IMG/VR virus record: IMGVR_UViG_3300027499_000005
Coordinates: 1-64,000 of that record
DNA length: 64,000 bases
Strand: one strand, 5' to 3'
Source: a virus
Numbering within the stretch: the stretch's first letter is position 1; each line of letters starts with the position of its first letter. Made by a program: the position numbers and the translations under genes. The notes under the pieces are model-generated. The model ran no database searches. It had not been told where the DNA came from and saw only the letters and a program-made list of their open reading frames with translations. This document shows positions 2,783-11,096 of the stretch, in pieces.

Positions 2783-2811
2783 TTGACACCGCCGCTGCTT
2801 CCGGTTATAAT
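2783..2811 (+). promoter_or_regulatory. Early promoter, TTGACA-17-TATAAT
   Basis: TTGACA 2783-2788 and TATAAT 2806-2811, with TTGAC boxes at about 2767 and 2778. It precedes the unusual tRNA-like gene at 2826 and the genes from 2921. Confidence 0.85.
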
Positions 2812-2825
2812 AGAAGCAACAAAAC

Positions 2826-2902
2826 GGGAAAGTATAGGCTCCGCCTTATAAGCGGTTGAAACCTTAGATGGTCACACGCGGGTTCGATCCCCGCCTTTCC
2901 CA
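2826..2902 (+). tRNA. tRNA-like gene with irregular core (TAT anticodon loop)
   Basis: The acceptor stem (2826-2832 with 2895-2901, A73) and T-arm (2878-2894, GCGGG TTCGATC CCCGC) are perfect. Only 7 nt follow the 5' acceptor strand before a 4-bp anticodon-like stem (CCGC/GCGG, loop CTTATAA). Then come 21 nt containing TTAGATGGT, which looks like a D-loop. There is no normal D-arm before the anticodon arm. The gene at 10964 has the same layout. If the loop is the anticodon, it would be tRNA-Ile(TAT). Whether it is functional is open. Confidence 0.55.
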
Positions 2903-2920
2903 CTTCACTTTGAGGATTTT

Positions 2921-3157
2921 ATGACACCTTCACAGCAGAAATACCTAGAGGAATACGAGAAATACAAGAATGTTCCTATTGATGCTGGCTGTCGGTACGT
3001 CGTTACCAGTAAACCAACCACGATTTACGAGGTTGTGTCTATTGATCAAACAGACGAAAGGGTTTCGCTAAAGAACAACACTGGTTTGATCATTAGCAAA
3101 ACGCTTCATTGGTGTCGTAAAAATCTTACTTTGCTTGTAACACAGGAGAATGTATGA
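2921..3157 (+). CDS. Hypothetical early protein
   Basis: 78 residues, ATG 2921 after TGAGGA. The N-terminal 20 residues are helical and charged (QQKYLEEYEKYKN). The remainder looks like short beta strands (YVVTSKPTTIYEVVSI), similar in length and pattern to the KGDL-type proteins but without the motif. It overlaps the next gene by ATGA. Function unknown. Confidence 0.65.
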   Translation: MTPSQQKYLEEYEKYKNVPIDAGCRYVVTSKPTTIYEVVSIDQTDERVSLKNNTGLIISKTLHWCRKNLTLLVTQENV

Positions 3158-3645
3158 GCTACCGTGATTCTTTGATTCAGATGAACCTTGATGACGCGAC
3201 AGATGTTGTTTTTAGTTACACAACTGAGCGTGATGTATGGTTTACCGAAGATGTAAATGAAGAAGATACCATTGTGAATCGAACTGATTCGTTTGATGTA
3301 TGGTGGAAGATCGTTAATGCTCCCGGTTTTGAGCAGCACCTTCGAAATGCTTTGCTAAATGCTGTTGAGTTTGTGAACATCGAAACTGAATCTCCCGAAG
3401 AGATTGATCTTAGCAGGGCGTATCAAGCATTCAAGGATAATCCTTATGAACTCTTTGAGGATTGTGAGTGCGAAACAATCCGATACGACCATAAGCGTGG
3501 TTATGTCAGGGGAGTTTGGGAGTTTCCTACGGAATGGGAGACTATTCGTGATAATGACCAGTTTTGGCAGATTTTCGATGATGCCAAGGGAGAACTGGAG
3601 ATTTTTGTATACACCGATGCCGGTGTTCTAACCTTGGCAAAGTGA
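3154..3645 (+). CDS. Hypothetical acidic protein
   Basis: 163 residues, starting at ATG 3154 overlapping the previous stop. It is strongly acidic, with Trp and Phe spread throughout (DVWFTEDVNEEDT, FPTEWETIRDNDQFWQ). Such compositions are common in early phage proteins that mimic nucleic acid or bind host factors, but nothing here shows that. No family recognised. Confidence 0.65.
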   Translation: MSYRDSLIQMNLDDATDVVFSYTTERDVWFTEDVNEEDTIVNRTDSFDVWWKIVNAPGFEQHLRNALLNAVEFVNIETESPEEIDLSRAYQAFKDNPYELFEDCECETIRYDHKRGYVRGVWEFPTEWETIRDNDQFWQIFDDAKGELEIFVYTDAGVLTLAK

Positions 3646-3652
3646 GAAAACC

Positions 3653-3748
3653 ATGAACAACGAAGTATACTACGAAGCAGTTTCCTATGGTTTTGATCCC
3701 GATTATGATCCAGTACCGGAAGATGATTGGGATTATAACGATTTTTGA
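3653..3748 (+). CDS. Very small acidic, Tyr-rich peptide
   Basis: 31 residues from ATG 3653, ten bases after the previous stop. It is rich in Asp and Tyr (YGFDPDYDPVPEDDWDYND). The stop TGA (3746-3748) lies within the TTGACA of the next promoter, the same stop-promoter fusion seen at other genes here, which supports it being real. Function unknown. Confidence 0.5.
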   Translation: MNNEVYYEAVSYGFDPDYDPVPEDDWDYNDF

Positions 3749-3773
3749 CAACTTAGGCGGGTAAGGTTATATT
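3745..3773 (+). promoter_or_regulatory. Promoter, TTGACA-17-TATATT
   Basis: TTGACA 3745-3750 and TATATT 3768-3773. Transcription would start near 3780, at the edge of the structured non-coding stretch 3780-3945. Confidence 0.7.
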
Positions 3774-3779
3774 ATTTTA

Positions 3780-3945
3780 GTGTTCAAAGCCTGTACGAAC
3801 ACCACGTTTCAGACCATTTTTGTGGGTATTACTGAAAGGTCATTTGACCAGTTGACGCTTGGCTAGGGAGGCAAGCCCTTAAGAGAGCTACCCCTTATTT
3901 TCGAAAGGAAGGCCGGGATCTCTATTCTATCACGATCCCGGCTTC
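3780..3945 (+). ncRNA. Candidate structured non-coding RNA
   Basis: There is no usable reading frame between 3749 and 3978, but a string of hairpins is visible: GTGTTC/GAACAC (3780-3785, 3797-3802), TTTCAG/CTGAAA (3807-3812, 3832-3837), GGTC-ATTT-GACC (3838-3849), GCTTG/CAAGC (3857-3861, 3872-3876) and a perfect 9-bp stem GCCGGGATC/GATCCCGGC (3912-3920, 3934-3942). A promoter ends just upstream. It could be a small regulatory RNA or a structured leader for the gene at 3979. Confidence 0.45.
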
Positions 3946-3978
3946 CGCCACCCCTCTCAAACAAAAAAGGAATAAGCA

Positions 3979-4140
3979 ATGTCTGATGTTATCGATGCTA
4001 CCGAGATTGAGACTGTTACCGAGGATCAACTTGATGATCTTGTAGGAATGCTTGATGCAGTTGCGATGCAACATCATCCAAAGCTCAGGTTCGAACACAT
4101 TTCTGCTTGGCTCCGCATGTGCCAACCAGCCAACTCGTAA
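3979..4140 (+). CDS. Small acidic hypothetical protein
   Basis: 53 residues from ATG 3979, preceded by AAAAAGGAATAAGC. The first half is acidic (ATEIETVTEDQLDDLVGMLDAV). The second half is more basic and ends LRMCQPANS. It lies between the structured stretch and the next promoter. Function unknown. Confidence 0.5.
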   Translation: MSDVIDATEIETVTEDQLDDLVGMLDAVAMQHHPKLRFEHISAWLRMCQPANS

Positions 4141-4157
4141 AGAGAATGTAAAGCGAT

Positions 4158-4186
4158 TTGACGACCAACCAACAACGGGATACATT
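4158..4186 (+). promoter_or_regulatory. Promoter, TTGACG-17-TACATT
   Basis: TTGACG 4158-4163 and TACATT 4181-4186. Its position rules out ATG 4187 as the start of the following gene and supports ATG 4211. Confidence 0.65.
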
Positions 4187-4210
4187 ATGAACGCAACAAG
4201 GGAGAAGCGT

Positions 4211-4375
4211 ATGCACATCGGTTCGAAGGTTATTTCCAAGGGCAACCCCCAAAATGCCGGTATTATCACCGAGCGTCCTGCCATTCATGGATTTTGGACT
4301 GTTCGCTGGTGGCGCGGTAAGTATCAAGGACAGTTGCGTATTTGCAACGAAGATCAACTTGAACTCGCTGGATGA
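4211..4375 (+). CDS. Small SH3/KOW-like protein
   Basis: 54 residues. ATG 4211 has a good GGGAGAA site at the right distance, and an upstream ATG at 4187 lies against the promoter. The sequence (MHIGSKVISKGNP..AGIITERP....WTVRWWRGKY) reads as a small all-beta barrel of KOW or SH3 type, related in style to the KGDL proteins. Function unknown. Confidence 0.6.
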   Translation: MHIGSKVISKGNPQNAGIITERPAIHGFWTVRWWRGKYQGQLRICNEDQLELAG

Positions 4376-4401
4376 ACCTAGTTATCTAGGGGGCCATTCC
4401 A

Positions 4402-4653
4402 ATGAGCGATAACGACGAAGATAAGCCAGTACCGCGTATTACTTTCATCATTCGCAAGAACGATGAAATGACACCGGAGCAAGAAACAGAAATGAGAAAC
4501 CGATTGGTTGAACTCATGAAGATGTATGCGGAAGATCCGAATGCTCTTGGTGGGTTGCCGCTCGGCCAAAAGACAAAGCGCAGAAAGAAGGTTGAGTTTC
4601 GACCATATCCTACTGTCGCTAATGAAGTGAATAATCGTGAGGATTTAGATTGA
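4402..4653 (+). CDS. Hypothetical early protein
   Basis: 83 residues from ATG 4402 (TAGGGGG upstream). It has an acidic start, a strand ITFIIRK, a helix with EQETEMRNRLVELMKMY, and a basic stretch KTKRRKKVEFRPYP. A CTAGTTATC sequence at 4378, similar to the proposed late motif, lies 24 bases before the start. Overlaps the next gene. No family recognised. Confidence 0.6.
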   Translation: MSDNDEDKPVPRITFIIRKNDEMTPEQETEMRNRLVELMKMYAEDPNALGGLPLGQKTKRRKKVEFRPYPTVANEVNNREDLD

Positions 4654-5018
4654 CAAGGGTATTTGTTTATGGTACATTAAGAAGGGGTGATTACAATCAC
4701 TACATTCTGAAAGAGAGTACCTTCTTGGGTACTGCCAATACAGAACCAAGGTTCACCCTTGTCAATCTTGGAGTTTTTCCGGCAATGATAAACAAGGGAA
4801 ATACCTCTATTCGTGGAGAAGTCTACGAAGTCGATGATAGTACCTTGCGAACTCTTGACAGTTTAGAAGGACACCCGAACTATTATGTTCGTGGTAAGAT
4901 TCAACTACAAAATGGGATGGAAGCAAATGCTTATGTATTACCTAATCGTCGGGCAGATTTTCACCCAACGATTCCTAGCGGCGATTGGTTTGATATAAAG
5001 TCAAACATTCCAGTATAA
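4650..5018 (+). CDS. Gamma-glutamylcyclotransferase-like protein (YtfP/GGCT family)
   Basis: 122 residues from a TTG start at 4650 that overlaps the previous stop (ATTGA), with GTGAGGA upstream. It has the family hallmarks VFVYGTLRRG at residues 4-13, GEVYEVD near 60-66, and LDSLEGHPNYYVR near 70-82. Members of this fold release 5-oxoproline from gamma-glutamyl amines or peptides, and the acidic residue in the EVYEV/EGHP region is the usual catalytic position. The phage substrate is not predictable. Confidence 0.85.
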   Translation: MTRVFVYGTLRRGDYNHYILKESTFLGTANTEPRFTLVNLGVFPAMINKGNTSIRGEVYEVDDSTLRTLDSLEGHPNYYVRGKIQLQNGMEANAYVLPNRRADFHPTIPSGDWFDIKSNIPV

Positions 5019-5028
5019 GGGATGAATA

Positions 5029-5220
5029 ATGTTCAAGACTATATTCTATAACTTGTTATGGTTTTTATCTCTAACAAGTGCTGCCTTTACTATCTCAGAT
5101 GTTGCGAGATCAATGTTTGAGGGAACAGCAGGCGATTTGATAAGATCGTTGGTATTGTTTTTCTTCGCCGTAGCAACATTTATAACTGTTGATTACAGGA
5201 TTAAGACAGACAATAACTAA
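5029..5220 (+). CDS. Small membrane protein, two membrane segments
   Basis: 63 residues with hydrophobic stretches at about 5-25 (IFYNLLWFLSLTSAAFTI) and 38-56 (LIRSLVLFFFAVATFITV), a short polar loop, and a charged C-terminus. Its start follows the cyclotransferase gene by ten bases. Possible roles in the host membrane are speculation. Confidence 0.65.
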   Translation: MFKTIFYNLLWFLSLTSAAFTISDVARSMFEGTAGDLIRSLVLFFFAVATFITVDYRIKTDNN

Positions 5221-5226
5221 AACAAA

Positions 5227-5308
5227 GGGAGAATGTCCCGAGCGGCAAAGGGGGCGGGCTGTAAACCCGCTGTCACAGACTTCGTAGGTTCGAGTCCTAC
5301 TTCTCCCA
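5227..5308 (+). tRNA. tRNA-Tyr(GTA)
   Basis: A class II tRNA with acceptor GGGAGAA/TTCTCCC, A73, and anticodon stem GCGGG/CCCGC around the loop CTGTAAA. It has a variable arm and the T-arm GTAGG TTCGAGT CCTAC. It begins six bases after the preceding stop codon. No CCA is encoded. Confidence 0.9.
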
Positions 5309-5318
5309 TTTTCATAGA

Positions 5319-5392
5319 CGCGGGTTAGAGCAGTCAGGTAGCTCGTCAGGCTCATAATCTGAAAGTCGTGGGTTCGAATCCCACACCCGCAA
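5319..5392 (+). tRNA. tRNA-Met(CAT), initiator-like
   Basis: The acceptor strand CGCGGGT pairs with ACCCGCA except for a C1-A72 mismatch, the hallmark of bacterial initiator tRNA. The D-arm (AGCAGTCAGGTAGCTCGT) closely follows bacterial tRNA-fMet. The anticodon stem TCAGG/TCTGA around CTCATAA has G30-C40 but lacks the three consecutive G-C pairs of typical initiators. A73. So initiator-like, with one feature missing. Confidence 0.85.
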
Positions 5393-5400
5393 TAAACAAA

Positions 5401-5586
5401 ATGACATTCCAAGATTTCATAGAAAGAATAAACAAAGCGCATGACTCACCGGATAATCCCGGTTGGGATAAATACAGGATACTCTTAGAAGTACTAAGAG
5501 AGTACCGCTACGATCTTTGGATTATTATTGTTGGACAAGAAATCGATTTGGCAAGATTATTGCCTTTTCTACAAAATAAATGGTAA
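5401..5586 (+). CDS. Small hypothetical protein, paralogue of the gene at 16198
   Basis: 61 residues from ATG 5401; the frame extends upstream only through the tRNA. It begins MTFQDFIERINKAHDSPDNP and continues with a helix (KYRILLEVLREYRYDLWIII) and PFLQNKW. The 79-residue protein at 16198 has the same layout (MTFEEFIDFYDKEATNPEN..LLFTILREVRPDL...LKNNW), so the two are probably related. Function unknown. Confidence 0.65.
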   Translation: MTFQDFIERINKAHDSPDNPGWDKYRILLEVLREYRYDLWIIIVGQEIDLARLLPFLQNKW

Positions 5587-5630
5587 AAGTAGATTAGATT
5601 TCCAACAAACTATCTACTTTAGAGGGCAAA

Positions 5631-5789
5631 ATGATAACGCTAAGTATTTTTGACGAGTTAGAAGATTGTGATGATGATTTAGATTTTGAGATAATCGAGG
5701 AGTCACCTAGTAGAAGCGTAACAGCCTACAATCGTATTGCAGAGTGCGATGCTATCCCAATGGGTGTCAGCAACAGAGAGGATTGGTAA
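5631..5789 (+). CDS. Small acidic hypothetical protein
   Basis: 52 residues from ATG 5631 behind AGAGGGC. Very acidic (FDELEDCDDDLDFEIIEES) with a more neutral C-terminus. Its TAA overlaps the next ATG (TAATG at 5787-5791), which supports it being translated. Function unknown. Confidence 0.55.
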   Translation: MITLSIFDELEDCDDDLDFEIIEESPSRSVTAYNRIAECDAIPMGVSNREDW

Positions 5790-6049
5790 TGTCTACTACC
5801 ACAAATCGAACTGTTTTAAATCCTAGGTGGAGATCGGCATCCTTCACAATCGTACCCGAGGACGATTTTGATGAATACATTCCTAGCTTTCTACAACAAC
5901 CCGAAGAAGTTCCTGCTCGCCTTTCATGGACTAGACCAAATACTGCTAACAATAGGACAGTTGTTCCTGTTCTAAGAAATAGCGGCGGTGTGCTTCTTAC
6001 AGATAATCGTCAGTTATTAGAAGAAGATTCTTACGCACCTTGGAGGTAA
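5789..6049 (+). CDS. Hypothetical early protein
   Basis: 86 residues. ATG 5789 overlaps the previous stop; the frame is open further upstream but without a better start. The sequence is low in hydrophobics, with Pro, Asn and Arg (LNPRWRSASFTIVPEDDFDEYIPSF), and likely flexible. No family recognised. Confidence 0.6.
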   Translation: MSTTTNRTVLNPRWRSASFTIVPEDDFDEYIPSFLQQPEEVPARLSWTRPNTANNRTVVPVLRNSGGVLLTDNRQLLEEDSYAPWR

Positions 6050-6050
6050 T

Positions 6051-6356
6051 GTGAGTGGTTTTATGGGCCTTTTGGCCGCAGTATTAGTTTCTAACATTGT
6101 TGATAGTGCAAAGACGGAAATGAAAAACTCAGAAATAACTGAGTATTCTGTCAGCCAAGTGATTTCACATAGAGACATGTATGTAATCCAAAACGAGACA
6201 CAAAAGTATCTTTGTAGGTCTTTGACTCCATGTTTTGGGCTTTACAAGGGAGAAATGATTCTTTTCACCAAGAATCCTGTTAGTTACAATGGCGATAAAG
6301 CGTACTACATGGATCATTCGGAATGCAGGATAGAAAGTTGTGAACGAGTTTTCTAG
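6051..6356 (+). CDS. Possible membrane-anchored or exported small protein
   Basis: 101 residues from GTG 6051, behind GGAGG in the tail of the previous gene. The first 16 residues are hydrophobic (MSGFMGLLAAVLVSNIV), like an uncleaved signal anchor. The rest looks like a small beta domain with three cysteines. Function unknown. Confidence 0.6.
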   Translation: MSGFMGLLAAVLVSNIVDSAKTEMKNSEITEYSVSQVISHRDMYVIQNETQKYLCRSLTPCFGLYKGEMILFTKNPVSYNGDKAYYMDHSECRIESCERVF

Positions 6357-6546
6357 TACCGTACTGACTATTTACAGTATGGATGACATTGACGAGAAAG
6401 AAATAAGGATTTTACTGAAGTATGCTGATCAGATTCAGTATTTCTCTCGCGAAGAAGTCGGGTACTTACTTTGGAAAGTCGAGTACCTAAGAGATAAAGT
6501 TCACCAATCTTCTGAAGCACCCAAAGTCGAAGTAGAACCCGTATAA
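6340..6546 (+). CDS. Small hypothetical protein
   Basis: 68 residues from GTG 6340, overlapping the previous gene by 17 bases with AGGAT upstream; ATG 6379 is an alternative start. It contains ILLKYADQIQYFSREEVGYL and an acidic, Pro-containing tail. The motif FSREEVGYLL is similar to YRLSEEEVSYLI in the 57-residue protein at 7406, so the two may be related. Confidence 0.55.
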   Translation: MNEFSSTVLTIYSMDDIDEKEIRILLKYADQIQYFSREEVGYLLWKVEYLRDKVHQSSEAPKVEVEPV

Positions 6547-6547
6547 A

Positions 6548-6619
6548 CGAGGTGTAGTGCAGCGGTAGCACGCTTGATTTGGGATCAAGAAGTCGCAGGT
6601 TCGATCCCTGCCACCTCGA
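6548..6619 (+). tRNA. tRNA-Pro(TGG)
   Basis: Acceptor CGAGGTG/CACCTCG with A73. Anticodon stem CTTGA/TCAAG around TTTGGGA. The T-arm is GCAGG TTCGATC CCTGC. It starts one base after the preceding stop codon. No CCA is encoded. Confidence 0.9.
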
Positions 6620-6623
6620 TACT

Positions 6624-6710
6624 GGAAGATTGGCTGAGTGGTCGATAGCGGCGGCTTGCTAAGCCGTTGAACGGGCAACTGTTCCACAGGTTCGAATCCT
6701 GTATCTTCCG
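6624..6710 (+). tRNA. tRNA-Ser(GCT)
   Basis: A class II tRNA with acceptor GGAAGAT/ATCTTCC and G73, as usual for serine. Anticodon loop TTGCTAA between CGGCT and AGCCG-like strands. Long variable arm (GAACGGGCAACTGTTC) and the T-arm ACAGG TTCGAAT CCTGT. Confidence 0.9.
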
Positions 6711-6727
6711 TTTGACATTCTCTTGAC

Positions 6728-6756
6728 TTGACGGGACGCACCCGGCATGATACATT
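6728..6756 (+). promoter_or_regulatory. Promoter, TTGACG-17-TACATT
   Basis: TTGACG 6728-6733 and TACATT 6751-6756, 43 bases before tRNA-Glu. An overlapping TTGACT box lies 5 nt upstream, as in the other early promoters. Confidence 0.75.
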
Positions 6757-6799
6757 AGAGACAGTCGAGGGCAGAGACTATAAACGCTGCCCGTACTTG

Positions 6800-6869
6800 G
6801 TCCCATAGTTTAGTGGTAAGAATCTCCGGTTTTCACCCGGACGGGTCGAGTTCGATTCTCGATGGGACT
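6800..6869 (+). tRNA. tRNA-Glu(TTC)
   Basis: Acceptor GTCCCAT/ATGGGAC with T73. Anticodon stem TCCGG/CCGGA around TTTTCAC. The T-arm is TCGAG TTCGATT CTCGA. Short D-arm with GTTTAGTGGTAAGAAT. No CCA is encoded. Confidence 0.9.
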
Positions 6870-6886
6870 ATTCCAAGGAAATAACT

Positions 6887-7150
6887 ATGATTATTCTAAA
6901 AGAAGAAACTGTAAACCACAACGGAAAATCTTATGTTGTTCGTATGTGGAAACAAGACGAAAGCAAAGCAAGAATCTACTGTTCGGCAGAACCCGGACCC
7001 GAGATTCCGTTTGCCCTTCGTATTGAACAGTTTGCTACTAATAGACAAAAAGCAGAGCAACTATTTCTAAAGGTAAAAGGATACGCCGCCCAAGAACTAA
7101 AGTGGCGTGAAGATAAGTTTAAAAGCGGGTATAATTCAGCGGTAGAATGA
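6887..7150 (+). CDS. Small hypothetical protein whose end overlaps tRNA-Gly
   Basis: 87 residues from ATG 6887. The body has alternating strands and a helix (NRQKAEQLFLKVKGYAAQEL). The last nine residues (GYNSAVE region) are encoded by the first 26 bases of the tRNA-Gly gene, and the stop TGA is inside the tRNA D-arm. This may be secondary extension of the frame after loss of its own stop. Function unknown. Confidence 0.6.
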   Translation: MIILKEETVNHNGKSYVVRMWKQDESKARIYCSAEPGPEIPFALRIEQFATNRQKAEQLFLKVKGYAAQELKWREDKFKSGYNSAVE

Positions 7151-7196
7151 TAGCCTTCCAAGCTATTCGTCGTCGGTTCGAATCCGACTACCCGCT
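7125..7196 (+). tRNA. tRNA-Gly(TCC)
   Basis: Acceptor GCGGGTA/TACCCGC with T73 as expected for glycine. Anticodon stem ATAGC/GCTAT around CTTCCAA. The T-arm is GTCGG TTCGAAT CCGAC. Its 5' 26 bases overlap the upstream coding frame. Confidence 0.9.
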
Positions 7197-7223
7197 CTTT
7201 GTTCCAATAGAAGATAAATAAAT

Positions 7224-7306
7224 GCTGCTGTGGCCGAGTGGTTAAAGGCAAAAGACTGTTAATCTTTCGGGGAAACCCTACATAGGTTCGAATCCTATCG
7301 GCAGCG
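7224..7306 (+). tRNA. Class II tRNA with GTT (Asn) anticodon and serine-like body
   Basis: Acceptor GCTGCTG/CGGCAGC with G73. Anticodon stem AAAGA/TCTTT around CTGTTAA gives anticodon GTT. It has a long variable arm (GGGG-AAA-CCCT) and a D-arm GGCCGAGTGGTTAAAGGC typical of serine or leucine tRNA. Bacterial tRNA-Asn normally has a short variable loop. G73 plus the long arm are SerRS identity elements, so charging with serine is possible. A plain class II relic read as Asn is the alternative. Confidence 0.8.
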
Positions 7307-7311
7307 TAATC

Positions 7312-7384
7312 GGATCCATAGCTCAACTGGCAGAGCGGGACACTCTTAATGTCAAGGTTACAGGTTCGATTCCTGTTGGGTCCA
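7312..7384 (+). tRNA. tRNA-Lys(CTT)
   Basis: Acceptor GGATCCA/TGGGTCC with A73. The anticodon stem GACA/TGTC holds the loop CTCTTAA (anticodon CTT). The D-arm is AGCTCAACTGGCAGAGC and the T-arm ACAGG TTCGATT CCTGT. Confidence 0.88.
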
Positions 7385-7405
7385 CTTTCACAAACTGGAG
7401 AATAA

Positions 7406-7579
7406 ATGTTTTCTTATCGTCTTAGCGAAGAAGAAGTTTCATACTTGATTGACTTGCTTAGTCAGAACGGAACAGAACAATCCCAACAAATCCAAGTGTC
7501 TCTTGTAAATCAACTGCGATCTTGGCACAAGTGGGAGCAAGAAATGTATCGACAAGAAGAAATCTTTACAGGCATCTAA
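7406..7579 (+). CDS. Small hypothetical protein
   Basis: 57 residues from ATG 7406 behind CTGGAG. It reads MFSYRLSEEEVSYLIDLL followed by a Gln-rich helix (QSQQIQVSLVNQLRSWHKW). It lies between two tRNA genes. It may be a distant relative of the protein at 6340. Function unknown. Confidence 0.6.
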   Translation: MFSYRLSEEEVSYLIDLLSQNGTEQSQQIQVSLVNQLRSWHKWEQEMYRQEEIFTGI

Positions 7580-7585
7580 CTTACT

Positions 7586-7657
7586 GTTTCCATAGTTCAA
7601 CGGACAGAATGACTCTCTCCTAAAGAGTAGATACAGGTTCGATTCCTGTTGGGAACA
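7586..7657 (+). tRNA. tRNA-Arg(CCT)
   Basis: Acceptor GTTTCCA/TGGGAAC with A73. Anticodon stem ACTCT/AGAGT around CTCCTAA. The T-arm is ACAGG TTCGATT CCTGT. Starts six bases after the preceding stop codon. Confidence 0.9.
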
Positions 7658-7671
7658 TTGGATAAATAACA

Positions 7672-7680
7672 CTATTTATC
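7672..7680 (+). promoter_or_regulatory. CTATTTATC motif (candidate late-type promoter)
   Basis: CTATTTATC lies 14 bases before the HAD gene start at 7694. The same motif precedes many virion-type genes after 27 kb, so this gene may be transcribed with the late set. Confidence 0.4.
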
Positions 7681-7693
7681 TGAGGGTACAAAA

Positions 7694-8098
7694 ATGGTTA
7701 TTACATTTGATTTCGATGATACATTGCTTTATACCAAAGCAGTTTTCGATGAAGAAGGCAACTATGATCACTCCGAAATCGTTGGTAAGAATCCCATTGT
7801 TTATCCAGTATTCGAAAAACTACTGAACGATCCCAAGAATAAAGTCTACATTGTCACAACTCGTTCTTCGTCTAGTCGTCAGAAAACCGAGGATCAACTT
7901 CGAAAATGGGGAGTTCTTGACAAACTTGCTGGGATTTATTTTACGGATGGGCAGTATAAAGTACGAACTTTGCAAGCATTAGGCTCTAAGCTACATTTTG
8001 ACGATGATGAAGAAGAAATCGCTAGAATGCCTGCTGGTTGTAAAGGAATGAAGATTGATCCTCACCCTTCTTGGACTCAACTCCAAAATCGTCCTTGA
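7694..8098 (+). CDS. HAD-superfamily phosphatase
   Basis: 134 residues from ATG 7694 (GAGGGT upstream). HAD motifs in order: ITFDFDDTLL (catalytic Asp6 and Asp8), VYIVTTRSS with the motif II Thr near residue 55, and LHFDDDEEEIAR for the acidic metal-binding motif near residue 100. The size fits a minimal capless HAD domain, as in the phosphatase half of phage polynucleotide kinases and in small nucleotidases. The substrate is not determined. Confidence 0.8.
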   Translation: MVITFDFDDTLLYTKAVFDEEGNYDHSEIVGKNPIVYPVFEKLLNDPKNKVYIVTTRSSSSRQKTEDQLRKWGVLDKLAGIYFTDGQYKVRTLQALGSKLHFDDDEEEIARMPAGCKGMKIDPHPSWTQLQNRP

Positions 8099-8110
8099 CG
8101 AACCCTTGAC

Positions 8111-8139
8111 TTGACTGCTGACGCTGCCTATGCTAAACT
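8111..8139 (+). promoter_or_regulatory. Early promoter, TTGACT-17-TAAACT
   Basis: TTGACT 8111-8116 and TAAACT 8134-8139. The HAD gene stop lies in the upstream TTGACGAACC box. Nearly identical to the promoters at 124 and 8455. Confidence 0.75.
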
Positions 8140-8162
8140 ACTTTCATCAACGGAGGCAACAA

Positions 8163-8453
8163 ATGTCGCAACCTGAAATGAAAGTTTGGCCGGACGGGGT
8201 AAAAGAATGGTTCTTCAACGATGTTCTACATCGTGAAGATGGTCCTGCTATTGATACTCCTGACGGAGCAAAACTTTGGTATTTCCACGGCAATCTTCAT
8301 CGTGAAGATGGGCCAGCCGTTGAGTGGCCTAATGGAACTAAGTTTTGGTATCTCAACGATGAAAAGGTAACTTGGGAGCAAGTCTTTCGTCAAGCAAACG
8401 GCGATTTGGAAAAGGAATGTCGGATTCTAGTCGCTGCCTTGACAACCTCTTGA
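8163..8453 (+). CDS. MORN-like repeat protein, two repeats (paralogue 3)
   Basis: 96 residues. ATG 8163 follows CGGAGGCAAC; an upstream in-frame ATG lies in the promoter. It begins MSQPEMKVWPDGVKEW, has two LHREDGPA units, and ends with EKVTWEQVFRQANGDLEKEC. The stop TGA is in the TTGACT box of the next promoter. See paralogue 1 for the family. Confidence 0.75.
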   Translation: MSQPEMKVWPDGVKEWFFNDVLHREDGPAIDTPDGAKLWYFHGNLHREDGPAVEWPNGTKFWYLNDEKVTWEQVFRQANGDLEKECRILVAALTTS

Positions 8454-8454
8454 C

Positions 8455-8483
8455 TTGACTGCTGACGCTGCCTATGCTAAACT
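8455..8483 (+). promoter_or_regulatory. Early promoter, TTGACT-17-TAAACT
   Basis: TTGACT 8455-8460 and TAAACT 8478-8483; identical in core sequence to the one at 8111, including CTGACGCTGCCTATGC. Confidence 0.75.
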
Positions 8484-8506
8484 GCTTTCATCAACGGGAG
8501 AGCAAA

Positions 8507-8731
8507 ATGTCGCAACCTGAAATGAAAGTTGAATATCCTAACGGAACAAAGTATTGGTATCTCAACGGCAAAAGGCATCGTGAAGATGGACCTGCTATTG
8601 AATATCCTAACGGAACAAAGTATTGGTATCTCAATAACGAAGAAGTCACTTGGGAACAAGTCTTTCGTCAAGCAAACGGCGACTTGGAAAAGGAATGTCG
8701 GATTCTAACTTACGCCTTGACAAATGGATAA
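8507..8731 (+). CDS. MORN-like repeat protein, one repeat (paralogue 4)
   Basis: 74 residues from ATG 8507 (GGGAGAGCAAA upstream). Contains MSQPEMKVEYPNGTKYW, one HREDGPAIEY unit and the EEVTWEQVFRQANGDL tail. It is the shortest of the second group. Followed after three bases by paralogue 5. Confidence 0.75.
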   Translation: MSQPEMKVEYPNGTKYWYLNGKRHREDGPAIEYPNGTKYWYLNNEEVTWEQVFRQANGDLEKECRILTYALTNG

Positions 8732-8734
8732 ACA

Positions 8735-9025
8735 ATGTCGCAACCTAAAATGAGAGTTGATTCTGACGGATCAAAGCGGTGGTATCTAAATGGCAAACTC
8801 CATTGTGAGGATGGACCGGCTGTTGAGTGGCCTGACGGAGAAAAGCAATGGTATCTCAACGGCAAACTACACCGTGAAGATGGTCCTGCTATTGAATATC
8901 CTAACGGAGAAAAGCAATGGTATCTCAACGGCAAAGAAGTCTCTTGGGAACAAGTCTTTCGCAACGCAAACGGCGATTTGGAAAAGGAATGTCGGATTCT
9001 AGTCGCTGCCTTGACAACCTCTTGA
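8735..9025 (+). CDS. MORN-like repeat protein, two repeats (paralogue 5)
   Basis: 96 residues from ATG 8735, with no strong ribosome site, so probably coupled to the gene before it. Nearly identical to paralogue 2 (398) through its first two-thirds, then switching to IEYPNGEKQW units. The mixture of identical and different blocks points to gene conversion. The stop TGA lies in the next TTGACT box. Confidence 0.75.
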   Translation: MSQPKMRVDSDGSKRWYLNGKLHCEDGPAVEWPDGEKQWYLNGKLHREDGPAIEYPNGEKQWYLNGKEVSWEQVFRNANGDLEKECRILVAALTTS

Positions 9026-9026
9026 C

Positions 9027-9055
9027 TTGACATTGCTTGCCCTTCCGGTTATAAT
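9027..9055 (+). promoter_or_regulatory. Early promoter, TTGACA-17-TATAAT
   Basis: TTGACA 9027-9032, TATAAT 9050-9055, with further TTGAC boxes at about 9011 and 9022. Drives the gene at 9081. Confidence 0.85.
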
Positions 9056-9080
9056 GTGAGAAAGAAAAGGGGAAACTAAA

Positions 9081-9314
9081 ATGGACGAACTTTATCGTAG
9101 CGATGTTCTAGAACTTCCTATGGACGTTGCTCAAAGGGTCGAGCAGATGATTTCCGGCGAGGAATCCTCAGAATGGATTATCTTCCGTAGTGCGTATGAG
9201 CGTAGATTGTGGCTTGTGAAACGGCTCTTCGAAGATGAAGAAGGATTGATCTACCAAGTCATTGCTAGCCCTATTATGTTCATGTCTGATCTAATCGAGT
9301 CCGCAACCTCTTGA
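9081..9314 (+). CDS. Hypothetical early protein
   Basis: 77 residues from ATG 9081 behind AAGGGGAAAC. Acidic and probably helical (DVAQRVEQMISGEESSEW, RRLWLVKRLFEDEEGL). Its TGA stop lies in TTGACGAACC at the front of the next promoter array. No family recognised. Confidence 0.65.
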   Translation: MDELYRSDVLELPMDVAQRVEQMISGEESSEWIIFRSAYERRLWLVKRLFEDEEGLIYQVIASPIMFMSDLIESATS

Positions 9315-9336
9315 CGAACCCTTGACAAGAAAATCC

Positions 9337-9365
9337 TTGCAACCCATAACCAGCTAGGCTATAAT
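9337..9365 (+). promoter_or_regulatory. Promoter, TTGCAA-17-TATAAT
   Basis: TATAAT at 9360-9365 preceded by CTAGGC; the -35 by spacing is TTGCAA at 9337-9342. TTGACG and TTGACA boxes lie at about 9312 and 9322. This is the first example of the second promoter class (CTAGGCTATAAT) common at 12.9-19.8 kb. Confidence 0.75.
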
Positions 9366-9394
9366 GTGTGTGTAAGAAAGAGAGGGAACGCTAG

Positions 9395-9586
9395 ATGAAG
9401 ATAACCAAAGGTTCACTTTTGTATTCTATGTACAACCCCGACCTTTATTCCATTGCTATGACTGATCAATACATGAACCCAAAATCCCGAGCAATCGAAT
9501 GGGTTTTTGATGCGTTCGTTCTAACAGGCGAATACTCCGGTACAAGGCAAACTATGGCAACTTTCGCTTGGCTTCACTTGCAATAA
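9395..9586 (+). CDS. Small hypothetical protein, KG-x-L start
   Basis: 63 residues from ATG 9395. Begins MKITKGSLLYSMYNPDLYSI, which is similar to the K-G-D/S/T-L starts of the small beta-barrel family, then EWVFDAFVLTGEYSGTRQTM. Possibly a distant member. Function unknown. Confidence 0.6.
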   Translation: MKITKGSLLYSMYNPDLYSIAMTDQYMNPKSRAIEWVFDAFVLTGEYSGTRQTMATFAWLHLQ

Positions 9587-9605
9587 CAAACTCAAAGGAA
9601 AACAA

Positions 9606-10001
9606 ATGACTAATCAAATCAATCTTCTACTGCGTGACATTAATCCAAGTGGTTGGGTCGCTATTAGTGATAGCGATGTGGAAGCATACAACGCTATTAA
9701 CGAACTTGTTGATGGTGGCCTTGGAGACAGGTATCCACTTTACACCTTGACTAGTTATGACGAGTTTTGCGATTGGTTGGAGAACTTCGGTCTTGAAGAT
9801 CAAGATTCAGATGGTTTTTGGGACTGGATGAAGGCGAAGGTTCATTGGCCCTTTTCACCGCAAGAAACTGGAGAGAAGTTTGATGAACTTGCTGAATGGT
9901 TTAATCAGTACAAACTTGATAATGAAATCGAGAACACACCGGAACCAGTAGAGAATGTTATTACCATCCACGGTAAGCGTTACAAGTTGGTTGAAATCTA
10001 A
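9606..10001 (+). CDS. Hypothetical acidic protein
   Basis: 131 residues from ATG 9606 behind AAAGGAAAAC. Trp- and Asp-rich central part (FGLEDQDSDGFWDWMKAK). The C-terminal 15 residues (NVITIHGKRYKLVEI) resemble the IxxxGKxYKLVEI tail often seen in phage proteins. Function unknown. Confidence 0.65.
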   Translation: MTNQINLLLRDINPSGWVAISDSDVEAYNAINELVDGGLGDRYPLYTLTSYDEFCDWLENFGLEDQDSDGFWDWMKAKVHWPFSPQETGEKFDELAEWFNQYKLDNEIENTPEPVENVITIHGKRYKLVEI

Positions 10002-10019
10002 ATAACAAAGGAAAACAAA

Positions 10020-10316
10020 ATGATCTCAGGTCTGCCCGATAATCTTCCTTCTTTTACCGAACAGGAAAAAGAGAACATTATCTTACAAAACAGGATTTAT
10101 GCTTGGATTGTGAATAACTCTGACTTGGGATCTTCTTGGGAAATCTCTCGTTATGGATGGGGATTCGAACTTTCTTATCTAAAACGCGGTGGCTATCATT
10201 ACATCGGAAAGGTTTGGTGGAATCTAACTTGGATTGCTTCGCCCGCTGATGGAGAAACAAAAGGTTTTGATTCCATTTCTGACGCAATCAAATACATTGA
10301 GAGTTTCTTGACTTGA
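10020..10316 (+). CDS. Hypothetical early protein
   Basis: 98 residues from ATG 10020, with the same AAAGGAAAACAAA leader as the previous gene. Central aromatic-rich region (SRYGWGFELSYLKRGGYHYI, VWWNLTW). The TGA stop (10314-10316) lies inside the TTGACA of the next promoter. No family recognised. Confidence 0.65.
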   Translation: MISGLPDNLPSFTEQEKENIILQNRIYAWIVNNSDLGSSWEISRYGWGFELSYLKRGGYHYIGKVWWNLTWIASPADGETKGFDSISDAIKYIESFLT

Positions 10317-10341
10317 CACCGCTGTCGCCCCCGGTTATAAT
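10313..10341 (+). promoter_or_regulatory. Early promoter for tRNA-Lys
   Basis: TTGACA 10313-10318, TATAAT 10336-10341; 14 bases before tRNA-Lys(TTT). The upstream gene ends within the -35. Confidence 0.85.
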
Positions 10342-10354
10342 AGGGGCGTGAAAA

Positions 10355-10427
10355 GGGTTCGTCGCCTAGCGGTTTTGGCAGCAGACTTTTAATCTGATAA
10401 ACGTGGGTTCGAATCCCACCGGACCCA
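10355..10427 (+). tRNA. tRNA-Lys(TTT)
   Basis: Acceptor GGGTTCG/CGGACCC with A73. The anticodon stem CAGA/TCTG holds the loop CTTTTAA. The T-arm is GTGGG TTCGAAT CCCAC. The second lysine tRNA in the window, complementing the CTT one. Confidence 0.9.
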
Positions 10428-10430
10428 TCT

Positions 10431-10452
10431 GATTATGTGGCTTAATGGTAAT
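10431..10452 (+). pseudogene. Possible 5' half of a broken tRNA gene
   Basis: GATTATG followed by TGGCTTAATGGTA reads as an acceptor 5' strand and D-loop but no anticodon arm follows. The 3' remnant at 11044-11078 ends CGGGATCA, which could pair with 6 of 7 bases of GATTATG. The HNH gene and tRNA-Arg sit between the halves. Confidence 0.35.
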
Positions 10453-10496
10453 ATTTATTTTAGACTACTATTTAGTATGTAATAGAGGTCTAAAAC

Positions 10497-10937
10497 ATGG
10501 CGAATAAAAGAAAGAAGAAGGTTTCCGAATGTTTAAATTGTAGTTGTAGTTTTGAGTTCTCCGAATCACAATCAACTGGTAAGTATTGTTCTAACAAATG
10601 CCAGCAAGAGTTCCAAAATAATAAGTACGTCAAAGAGTGGATGGAAGGCCGAGTAGATGGAACAAGGTGTAATGGAAATGCTCTTTCCAAGACAATAAGA
10701 GCATATCTGTTAGATACCGCAGAACATAAATGTTCAGAATGCGGTTGGTGTAAAGTCCATCCCAAAACTGGTAAAGTTCCATTGGAAATAGACCATATTG
10801 ATGGTAATAGTAAGAATAATAGACCAGAAAATCTTAGAGTTTTGTGCCCAAACTGTCATTCTTTGACGGAAACTTACCGTTTTTTGAATGCTGGAAAAGG
10901 AAATAGGGATAGGATGAAATATTTTAAACTAGTTTAG
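10497..10937 (+). CDS. HNH endonuclease, probably homing
   Basis: 146 residues from ATG 10497 (AATAGAGGTC upstream). An N-terminal zinc-binding region (CLNCSC..F and YCSNKCQQEF) is followed by a second pair (KCSECGW) and the HNH core EIDHIDGNSKNNRPENLRVLCPNCH. The core residues His-His-Asn plus CPNCH give the metal site that cuts DNA. Placement inside a tRNA cluster, between apparent tRNA halves, fits a mobile homing endonuclease. Confidence 0.88.
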   Translation: MANKRKKKVSECLNCSCSFEFSESQSTGKYCSNKCQQEFQNNKYVKEWMEGRVDGTRCNGNALSKTIRAYLLDTAEHKCSECGWCKVHPKTGKVPLEIDHIDGNSKNNRPENLRVLCPNCHSLTETYRFLNAGKGNRDRMKYFKLV

Positions 10938-10963
10938 AAAACAAGATAAGTTTGAAACACAAC

Positions 10964-11039
10964 GCGGACGTATGCCGCTCGCCTTCTAAGCGAGAGAAAG
11001 CTAACTGGATACATACAGGTTCGAGTCCTGTCGTCCGCA
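10964..11039 (+). tRNA. tRNA-like gene with irregular core (TCT anticodon loop)
   Basis: Acceptor GCGGACG/CGTCCGC with A73 and T-arm ACAGG TTCGAGT CCTGT are perfect. The anticodon arm CTCGC-CTTCTAA-GCGAG begins only 7 nt after the acceptor strand. After it come 20 nt with AGCTAACTGGATACAT, which looks like a D-loop region. There is no D-arm in its normal place. The same order occurs at 2826. By anticodon it would be tRNA-Arg(TCT). Confidence 0.6.
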
Positions 11040-11043
11040 TTCT

Positions 11044-11078
11044 GACCCTCGTTACAGGTTCGAATCCCTCCGGGATCA
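11044..11078 (+). pseudogene. 3' remnant of a tRNA gene
   Basis: ACAGGTTCGAATCCCTC resembles a T-arm with a decayed stem, followed by CGGGATCA like a 3' acceptor strand. No matching 5' acceptor lies within normal distance; GATTATG at 10431 is a partial match. Confidence 0.45.
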
Positions 11079-11096
11079 TAACAAATAGGAAAATGT

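Follow-up and report, generated by a model that had tools for sequence, protein, structure and literature searches.

Natural tRNAs and tRNA-like RNAs depart from the canonical cloverleaf in several ways. D-armless and armless mitochondrial tRNAs form no D hairpin between the acceptor and the anticodon arm. Allo-tRNAs and tRNA-Sec, with their non-7/5 cloverleaves, alter stem lengths but keep the order of D-arm, anticodon arm, and T-arm, and the circularly permuted tRNA genes of algae and archaea have a changed order of segments, from which processing restores a normal tRNA (PMC3978253). The bacterial Y RNA YrlA has a tRNA-like domain and an RNA-repair gene neighborhood but is no tRNA gene. Here, we describe two genes in a 64,000-nucleotide (nt) stretch of viral DNA (positions 1 to 64,000 of the IMG/VR record IMGVR_UViG_3300027499_000005, the whole virus record being 147 kb; hereafter, the window) that share features with each of these systems and match none of them. 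Genes 1 (2826 to 2902, plus strand) and 2 (10964 to 11039, plus strand) lack a D hairpin in the usual place, yet unlike D-armless mitochondrial tRNAs, they are of bacterial or phage origin and keep canonical tertiary bases, a relocated D-loop block, and an equivalent of the D-stem. Their segment order is changed, but it is the internal order of the RNA itself that differs. A circularly permuted gene was rejected, both genes running from the 5' acceptor strand to the 3' acceptor strand, and neither gene has a Y RNA module. A literature search with preprints and most subscription papers outside its reach found no description of such tRNAs, and the form is absent from the available passages of a review of noncanonical natural tRNAs (PMC7609411).

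With canonical bacterial tRNA-Ile and tRNA-Arg (RF00005), the phage RNAs share a 7-bp acceptor, a T-arm, a 7-nt anticodon loop with U33, U8, A14, an R15-Y48 pair (R, purine; Y, pyrimidine), G18G19, A20 in Arg or U20 in Ile, and A73 in Ile. In contrast to canonical tRNAs, they carry the D-loop and one D-stem strand 3' of the anticodon arm, which is itself surrounded by the D-stem equivalent, and they have no canonical variable loop. Gene 1 (77 nt) reads GGGAAAG-TAT-AGG-C-(TCCGC CTTATAA GCGGT)-TGAAA-CCT-TAGATGGTCACA-C-(GCGGG TTCGATC CCCGC)-CTTTCCC-A and gene 2 (76 nt) reads GCGGACG-TAT-GC-CG-(CTCGC CTTCTAA GCGAG)-AGAAA-GC-TAACTGGATACA-T-(ACAGG TTCGAGT CCTGT)-CGTCCGC-A, the 3' CCA being encoded in neither. 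Both have acceptor stems with 7 of 7 bp, an unpaired base 73, and 5-bp T-stems, and in both a 7-nt linker without a D-arm hairpin runs from the 5' acceptor strand to the anticodon arm. The anticodon arm of gene 1 (2840 to 2856) has a U.U at 27-43 and the anticodon TAT at 2847 to 2849; that of gene 2 (10978 to 10994) has 5 bp and the anticodon TCT at 10985 to 10987. Between anticodon arm and T-arm lie 21 nt in gene 1 and 20 nt in gene 2. The gene coordinates, the perfect acceptor stems and T-arms, the 7-nt spacing, the two anticodons, and the 21- and 20-nt distances had been listed in an earlier note on this DNA and were confirmed on the sequence.

A short stem, the D-stem equivalent, encloses the anticodon arm in each gene. 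In gene 1, AGG at 2836 to 2838 pairs with CCT at 2862 to 2864, a covarying helix of the family alignment described below, and in gene 2 the stem takes a 2-bp form, GC at 10974 to 10975 with GC at 11000 to 11001. The displaced D-loop block follows directly: TAGATGGTCACA and C48 in gene 1 (2865 to 2877; A14, G15 paired with C48, G18G19, and U20) and TAACTGGATACA and T48 in gene 2 (11002 to 11014; A14, A15 paired with U48, G18G19, and A20), such that the 15-48 pair itself differs between the two genes. ARAGORN detected 12 canonical tRNAs in the window, all between 2.6 and 10.4 kb, and missed genes 1 and 2. The Rfam tRNA model RF00005 (gathering score, 29 bits) placed both genes at precisely the coordinates given above and gave gene 1 34.1 bits and gene 2 42.5 bits, compared to 50.5 to 71 bits for the 12 canonical tRNAs. 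With R1, a covariance model of the permuted family, the genes scored 88.9 and 82.6 bits and canonical tRNAs 29 bits at most.

We searched for relatives with a pattern covering the displaced block and T-loop alone, GAAAN{2,3}TANNTGGNNACANNNNGGTTCRA (N, any base), which left the acceptor, the anticodon stem, the enclosing stem, and bases 15, 16, 20, 48, and 73 free; as GGTTCRA is part of the pattern, the T-loop sequence is no independent evidence. The pattern matched just genes 1 and 2 within the window and nothing in shuffles. At least 119 stretches of IMG/VR matched, with 110 distinct sequences among the matches listed, from more than 100 contigs; ascertainment was motif-based, and family counts are lower bounds. 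One segment order is shared by at least 110 distinct sequences: 5' acceptor strand, UA(U), a short stem strand, the anticodon arm, a linker (usually NGAAA), and the complementary strand, then the block (A14 R15 N U G18 G19 N20 ... Y48), the T-arm, and the 3' acceptor strand. Nearly all of the listed sequences form the anticodon stem and have 6 to 7 acceptor pairs and 4 to 5 T-stem pairs. Members without the linker GAAA (for example, L025, L075, L121, L138, L142, Yaboi 86686, and Zooman 95033) preserve this order and are likewise of the Ile or Arg type.

The enclosing stem of 2 to 3 bp pairs in all 110 distinct sequences listed and comes in 13 sequence types, including CCC/GGG, CTC/GAG, ACC/GGT, CGG/CCG, and GC/GC, with short forms of GC/GC in eight members and CC/GG in two. 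In an alignment of 39 diverse family sequences, 93.5% of cells in the helices were paired, compared to 58.5% in shuffled and 33 to 46% in slid alignments, and the covariation score was 0.910 versus 0.215 (0 of 500 shuffles reached the observed value). The acceptor stem was paired in 94.9% of cells, the T-stem in 98.5%, and the enclosing stem in 100%, with changes on both sides at all three of its pairs. On a FastTree tree, these three pairs changed about 13, 23, and 9 to 12 times, usually on both sides together. Single-sequence folds of the window genes were ambiguous. Unconstrained RNAalifold recovered the same enclosing stem, and a normal cloverleaf was rejected, the family consensus fold being the permuted layout. 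Within the block, RNAalifold also proposed a small hairpin of U-G/C-A (columns 44-51 and 45-50), which we did not adopt because it is invariant in the alignment and lost in divergent members (for example, TGGATAGAT in L142 and GGAGTAT in L025). This large covarying family supports the earlier note in placing the anticodon arm in the D-arm position with a D-loop block 3' of it, and compensatory stem changes across the family bear out its view of a shared design instead of decay. Neither a normal cloverleaf fold nor a lack of homologs with this layout, the results that the note had named as refuting it, was observed. Its statement that the displaced block forms no D-stem was right in that no D hairpin exists, but it missed the stem around the anticodon arm.

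The block itself has the consensus U-A14-R15-N-U-G18-G19-N20-N-A21-C-A-Y48. Among 121 sequences, positions 15 and 48 were A-U in 98, G-C in 16, A-C in 4, and G-U in 3 (114 of 121 concordant), and each side changed 16 times on the tree. Mutual information between alignment positions ranked helix pairs at the top and, outside the helices, 35-20, 35-73, and 20-73, followed by 15-48 and 16-59. The bases for the G18-55, G19-56, and U8-A14 contacts are kept; since they are invariant, covariation is silent on those contacts.

The coupling of positions 20, 35, and 73 concerns amino acid identity. A20 is the main determinant for bacterial arginyl-tRNA synthetase (ArgRS). In 144 sequences parsed with a motif-light descriptor (one of them, L070, a tRNA-Ser artifact), all 52 Arg members had A20, and the 78 Ile(UAU/GAU) and 6 CAU members had U20 without exception. 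A few Ile members, one of which has C20 (L135), were parsed one base out of register and tallied as "other". Base 73 was A in all 78 Ile members, and the 3' CCA was encoded in 33 of 52 Arg members. In bacteria, the Arg identity set comprises A20, C35, U/G36, and A/G73 and the Ile set A73, U20, A35, and U36 (PMC9976931); judged by sequence, the family fits both sets, with A20 and C35 in Arg members and U20, A35, U36, and A73 in Ile members. The anticodon arm has a 7-nt loop with U33 and purine 37; its stem has 4 bp and a U.U in the majority of Ile members and 5 bp in many Arg members. The U27.U43 apposition is near-invariant in Ile members (columns 15 and 31 of alignment A1), and many Arg members pair there. 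The only anticodons seen were UAU, GAU, CAU, UCU, CCU, ACG, UCG, CCG, GCG, and two UAC, CAU members possibly being Ile (lysidine) or Met. An IMG/VR scan that kept the family motif found no anticodon with G or T as the middle base and two with A or C as the last base, both UAC. The predicted decoding capacity is thus essentially that of Ile and Arg alone. The two UAC (Val) anticodons sit on an Ile-like body with U20 and A73 (L042:4-80 and L142:10637-10713) and are possibly Val or possibly a case of recoding.

We consider it likely that genes 1 and 2 are functional elongator tRNA-Ile(UAU) and tRNA-Arg(UCU), members of a family carried by phages and characterized by the exchange of two internal segments; they look like working tRNAs because the folding bases and the Ile and Arg marker bases are kept. 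The order would be [1-9]-[22-43]-[10-21]-[48-73] in place of [1-9]-[10-21]-[22-43]-[44-73]. In a canonical tRNA, positions 22 to 25 run on into the 5' strand of the anticodon stem, and 10 to 13 lead into the D-loop. In known tRNA structures, base triples bring the positions at the new joins (9-22, 43-10, and 21-48) close to each other, 9 with 12-23, 10-25 with 45, and 21 with 8-14, next to 15-48. In the exchanged order, the strand past U8-A9 would descend into the anticodon stem, and the strand past the anticodon arm (linker NGAAA) would return upward, pair as the D-stem equivalent, form the D-loop (A14 R15 N U G18 G19 N20 N A21), and enter the T-arm via Y48. Provided that the enclosing stem is stacked on the anticodon stem in the manner of a D-stem, the same helices and contacts would be made through new joins, giving near-normal L-shape contacts (U8-A14, R15-Y48, G18-55, and G19-56) with backbone connectivity alone changed. 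Transcribed and processed in this form, the RNAs would be charged by the host isoleucyl-tRNA synthetase and ArgRS and would read AUA and AGA/AGG during infection.

Reordering the sequences in silico is consistent with this exchange. ARAGORN recognized 0 of 111 sequences in their native order and 66 of 111, 65 of them with the right anticodon, after the segments were placed in canonical order; other orders gave 0 to 47. Some observations weigh against the segment exchange as formulated. One of the other orders, with the enclosing-stem strand read first, reached 47 of 111, which makes the reordering evidence in favor of the exact swap but no proof of it. The D-stem equivalent has only 2 to 3 bp and a polarity departing from the canonical Y11-R24 preference, leaving its exact geometric equivalence to a D-stem unproven. 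The Arg/Ile split at base 35 is one change on the tree, so the link between base 20 and the anticodon reflects conservation after one switch and not many. Finally, the near-invariant U27.U43 of Ile members and an invariant CA before Y48 are unexplained by it.

An improbable alternative is that the RNAs are tRNA mimics, acting as decoys for tRNA-targeting defense nucleases, synthetases, or RNA-repair enzymes. Phage tRNAs can escape host tRNA-targeting defenses (PMC10264068), and a bacterial copy lies near RtcB (L131) and others near sub-threshold Y RNA-like matches (L135 and L136). A decoy sits poorly, however, with the retention of full identity sets at the anticodon, base 20, and base 73, or with the CCA that many Arg members encode. 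Family members are also located within tRNA arrays, and their anticodons complement the canonical ones of their loci: a canonical tRNA in the locus repeats the permuted anticodon in only 10 of 141 cases, and ARAGORN found no UCU or UAU anticodon among the 12 canonical tRNAs of the window. The codons concerned are heavily used, AGA accounting for 48% of Arg codons and AUA for 31% of Ile codons in 24 phage open reading frames. Distinct from a decoy would be a translating tRNA lineage that kept its L-shaped core while its backbone order changed, this topology being favored for hiding Ile and Arg tRNAs from cutting or policing host enzymes, a scenario that we put forward tentatively and regard as rather doubtful.

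The fallback proposed in the earlier note, a D-armless tRNA with a long extra loop, fares slightly worse and is quite unlikely. On this reading, the 20-nt block would not act as a D-loop and would be a flexible variable region, as in the metazoan mitochondrial tRNAs that have no D-arm. No hairpin D-stem is present, Rfam aligns gene 2 with the D-arm deleted and a 17-nt insertion 3' of the anticodon arm, and Escherichia coli can be made to use a D-armless tRNA (PMC11551756). Yet the block is the conserved part, keeping A14 and the GG, with R15 and Y48 covarying and base 20 tracking the anticodon, and the covarying stem connects it with the strand that follows the acceptor. None of these features would be expected of a filler loop. 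Decay of tRNA genes and resemblance by chance, to which the ARAGORN misses and the Rfam scores below those of the canonical tRNAs might point, are exceedingly improbable and were rejected on covariation, given compensatory changes in every stem, perfectly paired acceptor and T stems, a layout common to more than 100 contigs, and a perfect promoter 15 nt upstream of gene 1.

Members of the permuted family occurred in all 10 sequenced phage records that we checked over their whole length: Streptomyces phages TunaTartare, Mildred21 (four members), Yaboi (three), and Targaryen; Microbacterium phages A3Wally, Zooman, and Magritte; and crAss-like Kehishuvirus 'tikkala', cr130_1, and bajarodcaudo virus 1. 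The Yaboi members include an Ile-GAU gene at 74542 to 74618 and an Arg-CCU gene at 91004 to 91080. A third R1 match in Zooman (28 bits) is an annotated canonical tRNA-Arg(cct) and no family member. BLASTN with one Ile member matched 83 phage records, 78 of them over at least 80% of the query (similarity matches, not each model-checked). Most of these occupy one shared map position in Streptomyces phages, and hardly any is annotated. The family is thus spread over dozens of sequenced Streptomyces, Microbacterium, and Bacteroides phages, with nearly all of the phage genes unannotated. One Mildred21 copy is annotated as tRNA-Phe(gaa), its loop being UCG in the permuted layout, and in 'tikkala' a member occupies the 90 nt that separate the annotated tRNA-Trp and tRNA-Met genes. 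No match came from a viral scan aimed at a divergent Arg subfamily, the spacing in its pattern being probably off. If our reading is true, the tRNA fold survives a changed strand order, which bears on tRNA evolution, tRNA gene finders, phage tRNA counts, orthogonal tRNA design, and evasion of tRNA-targeting immunity. It is testable in culturable phages of Streptomyces (Mildred21, Yaboi, and Targaryen), Microbacterium foliorum (Magritte and Zooman), and Bacteroides cellulosilyticus (Kehishuvirus 'tikkala').

In bacteria, the family is sporadic, since 14 contigs matched among 84,980 species and, in a Cytophagales-like order, 1 of 292 genomes matched under strict filters, a result on which we rejected a general cellular tRNA of these bacteria. 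A plasmid search gave no family match, nor did E. coli genomes searched with an Achromobacter member. Bacterial permuted tRNA-Ile(UAU) genes lie near RtcB (L131), M41 peptidases (L131 and L136), or a WYL-PhyH fusion (L135 and L141). The Y RNA-like matches near the copies at L135 and L136 resemble YrlA, fall below the gathering score, and are separate from the permuted tRNAs. These four bacterial loci may be an RNA-repair island with spare tRNAs.

Gene 1 is preceded by a perfect sigma-70 consensus promoter, TTGACA-17-TATAAT (2783 to 2811, plus strand; 12 of 12 consensus matches), ending 15 nt before it. The window contains six such perfect sites versus 0.02 expected, all on the plus strand in the first 11.6 kb (starting at 1938, 2541, 2783, 9027, 10313, and 11534), most sharing a CCGGTTATAAT-like end. 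Those at 2541 to 2569 and 10313 to 10341 lie just upstream of canonical tRNA-Leu and tRNA-Lys genes, respectively, and the six probably mark a strongly transcribed tRNA region. Downstream of the tRNA-Lys promoter, an HNH endonuclease gene (10497 to 10937) precedes gene 2. Directly after gene 2, at 11040 to 11080, lies a tRNA 3'-end-like fragment, ACAGGTTCGAATCCCTCCGGGATCA, without a matching 5' part, possibly a remnant or an attachment-type site.

Other unusual RNAs were observed in these tRNA-rich loci. At 7223 to 7307, the window encodes a GUU (Asn) tRNA with a long variable region, as in Ser, Leu, and Tyr tRNAs, on a seemingly Ser-like body with G73; it may be charged with either Asn or Ser. 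Long-variable GUU tRNAs also occur at L014:10395-10482, L019:1398-1489, L025:4425-4510, L030:6795-6883, and L039:2502-2590, and 17 of 67 Asn tRNAs in these loci are at least 80 nt long. Transfer-messenger RNA genes lie within phage tRNA arrays at L142:6510-6874 (ARAGORN) and L148:5725-5991 (annotated in Mildred21).

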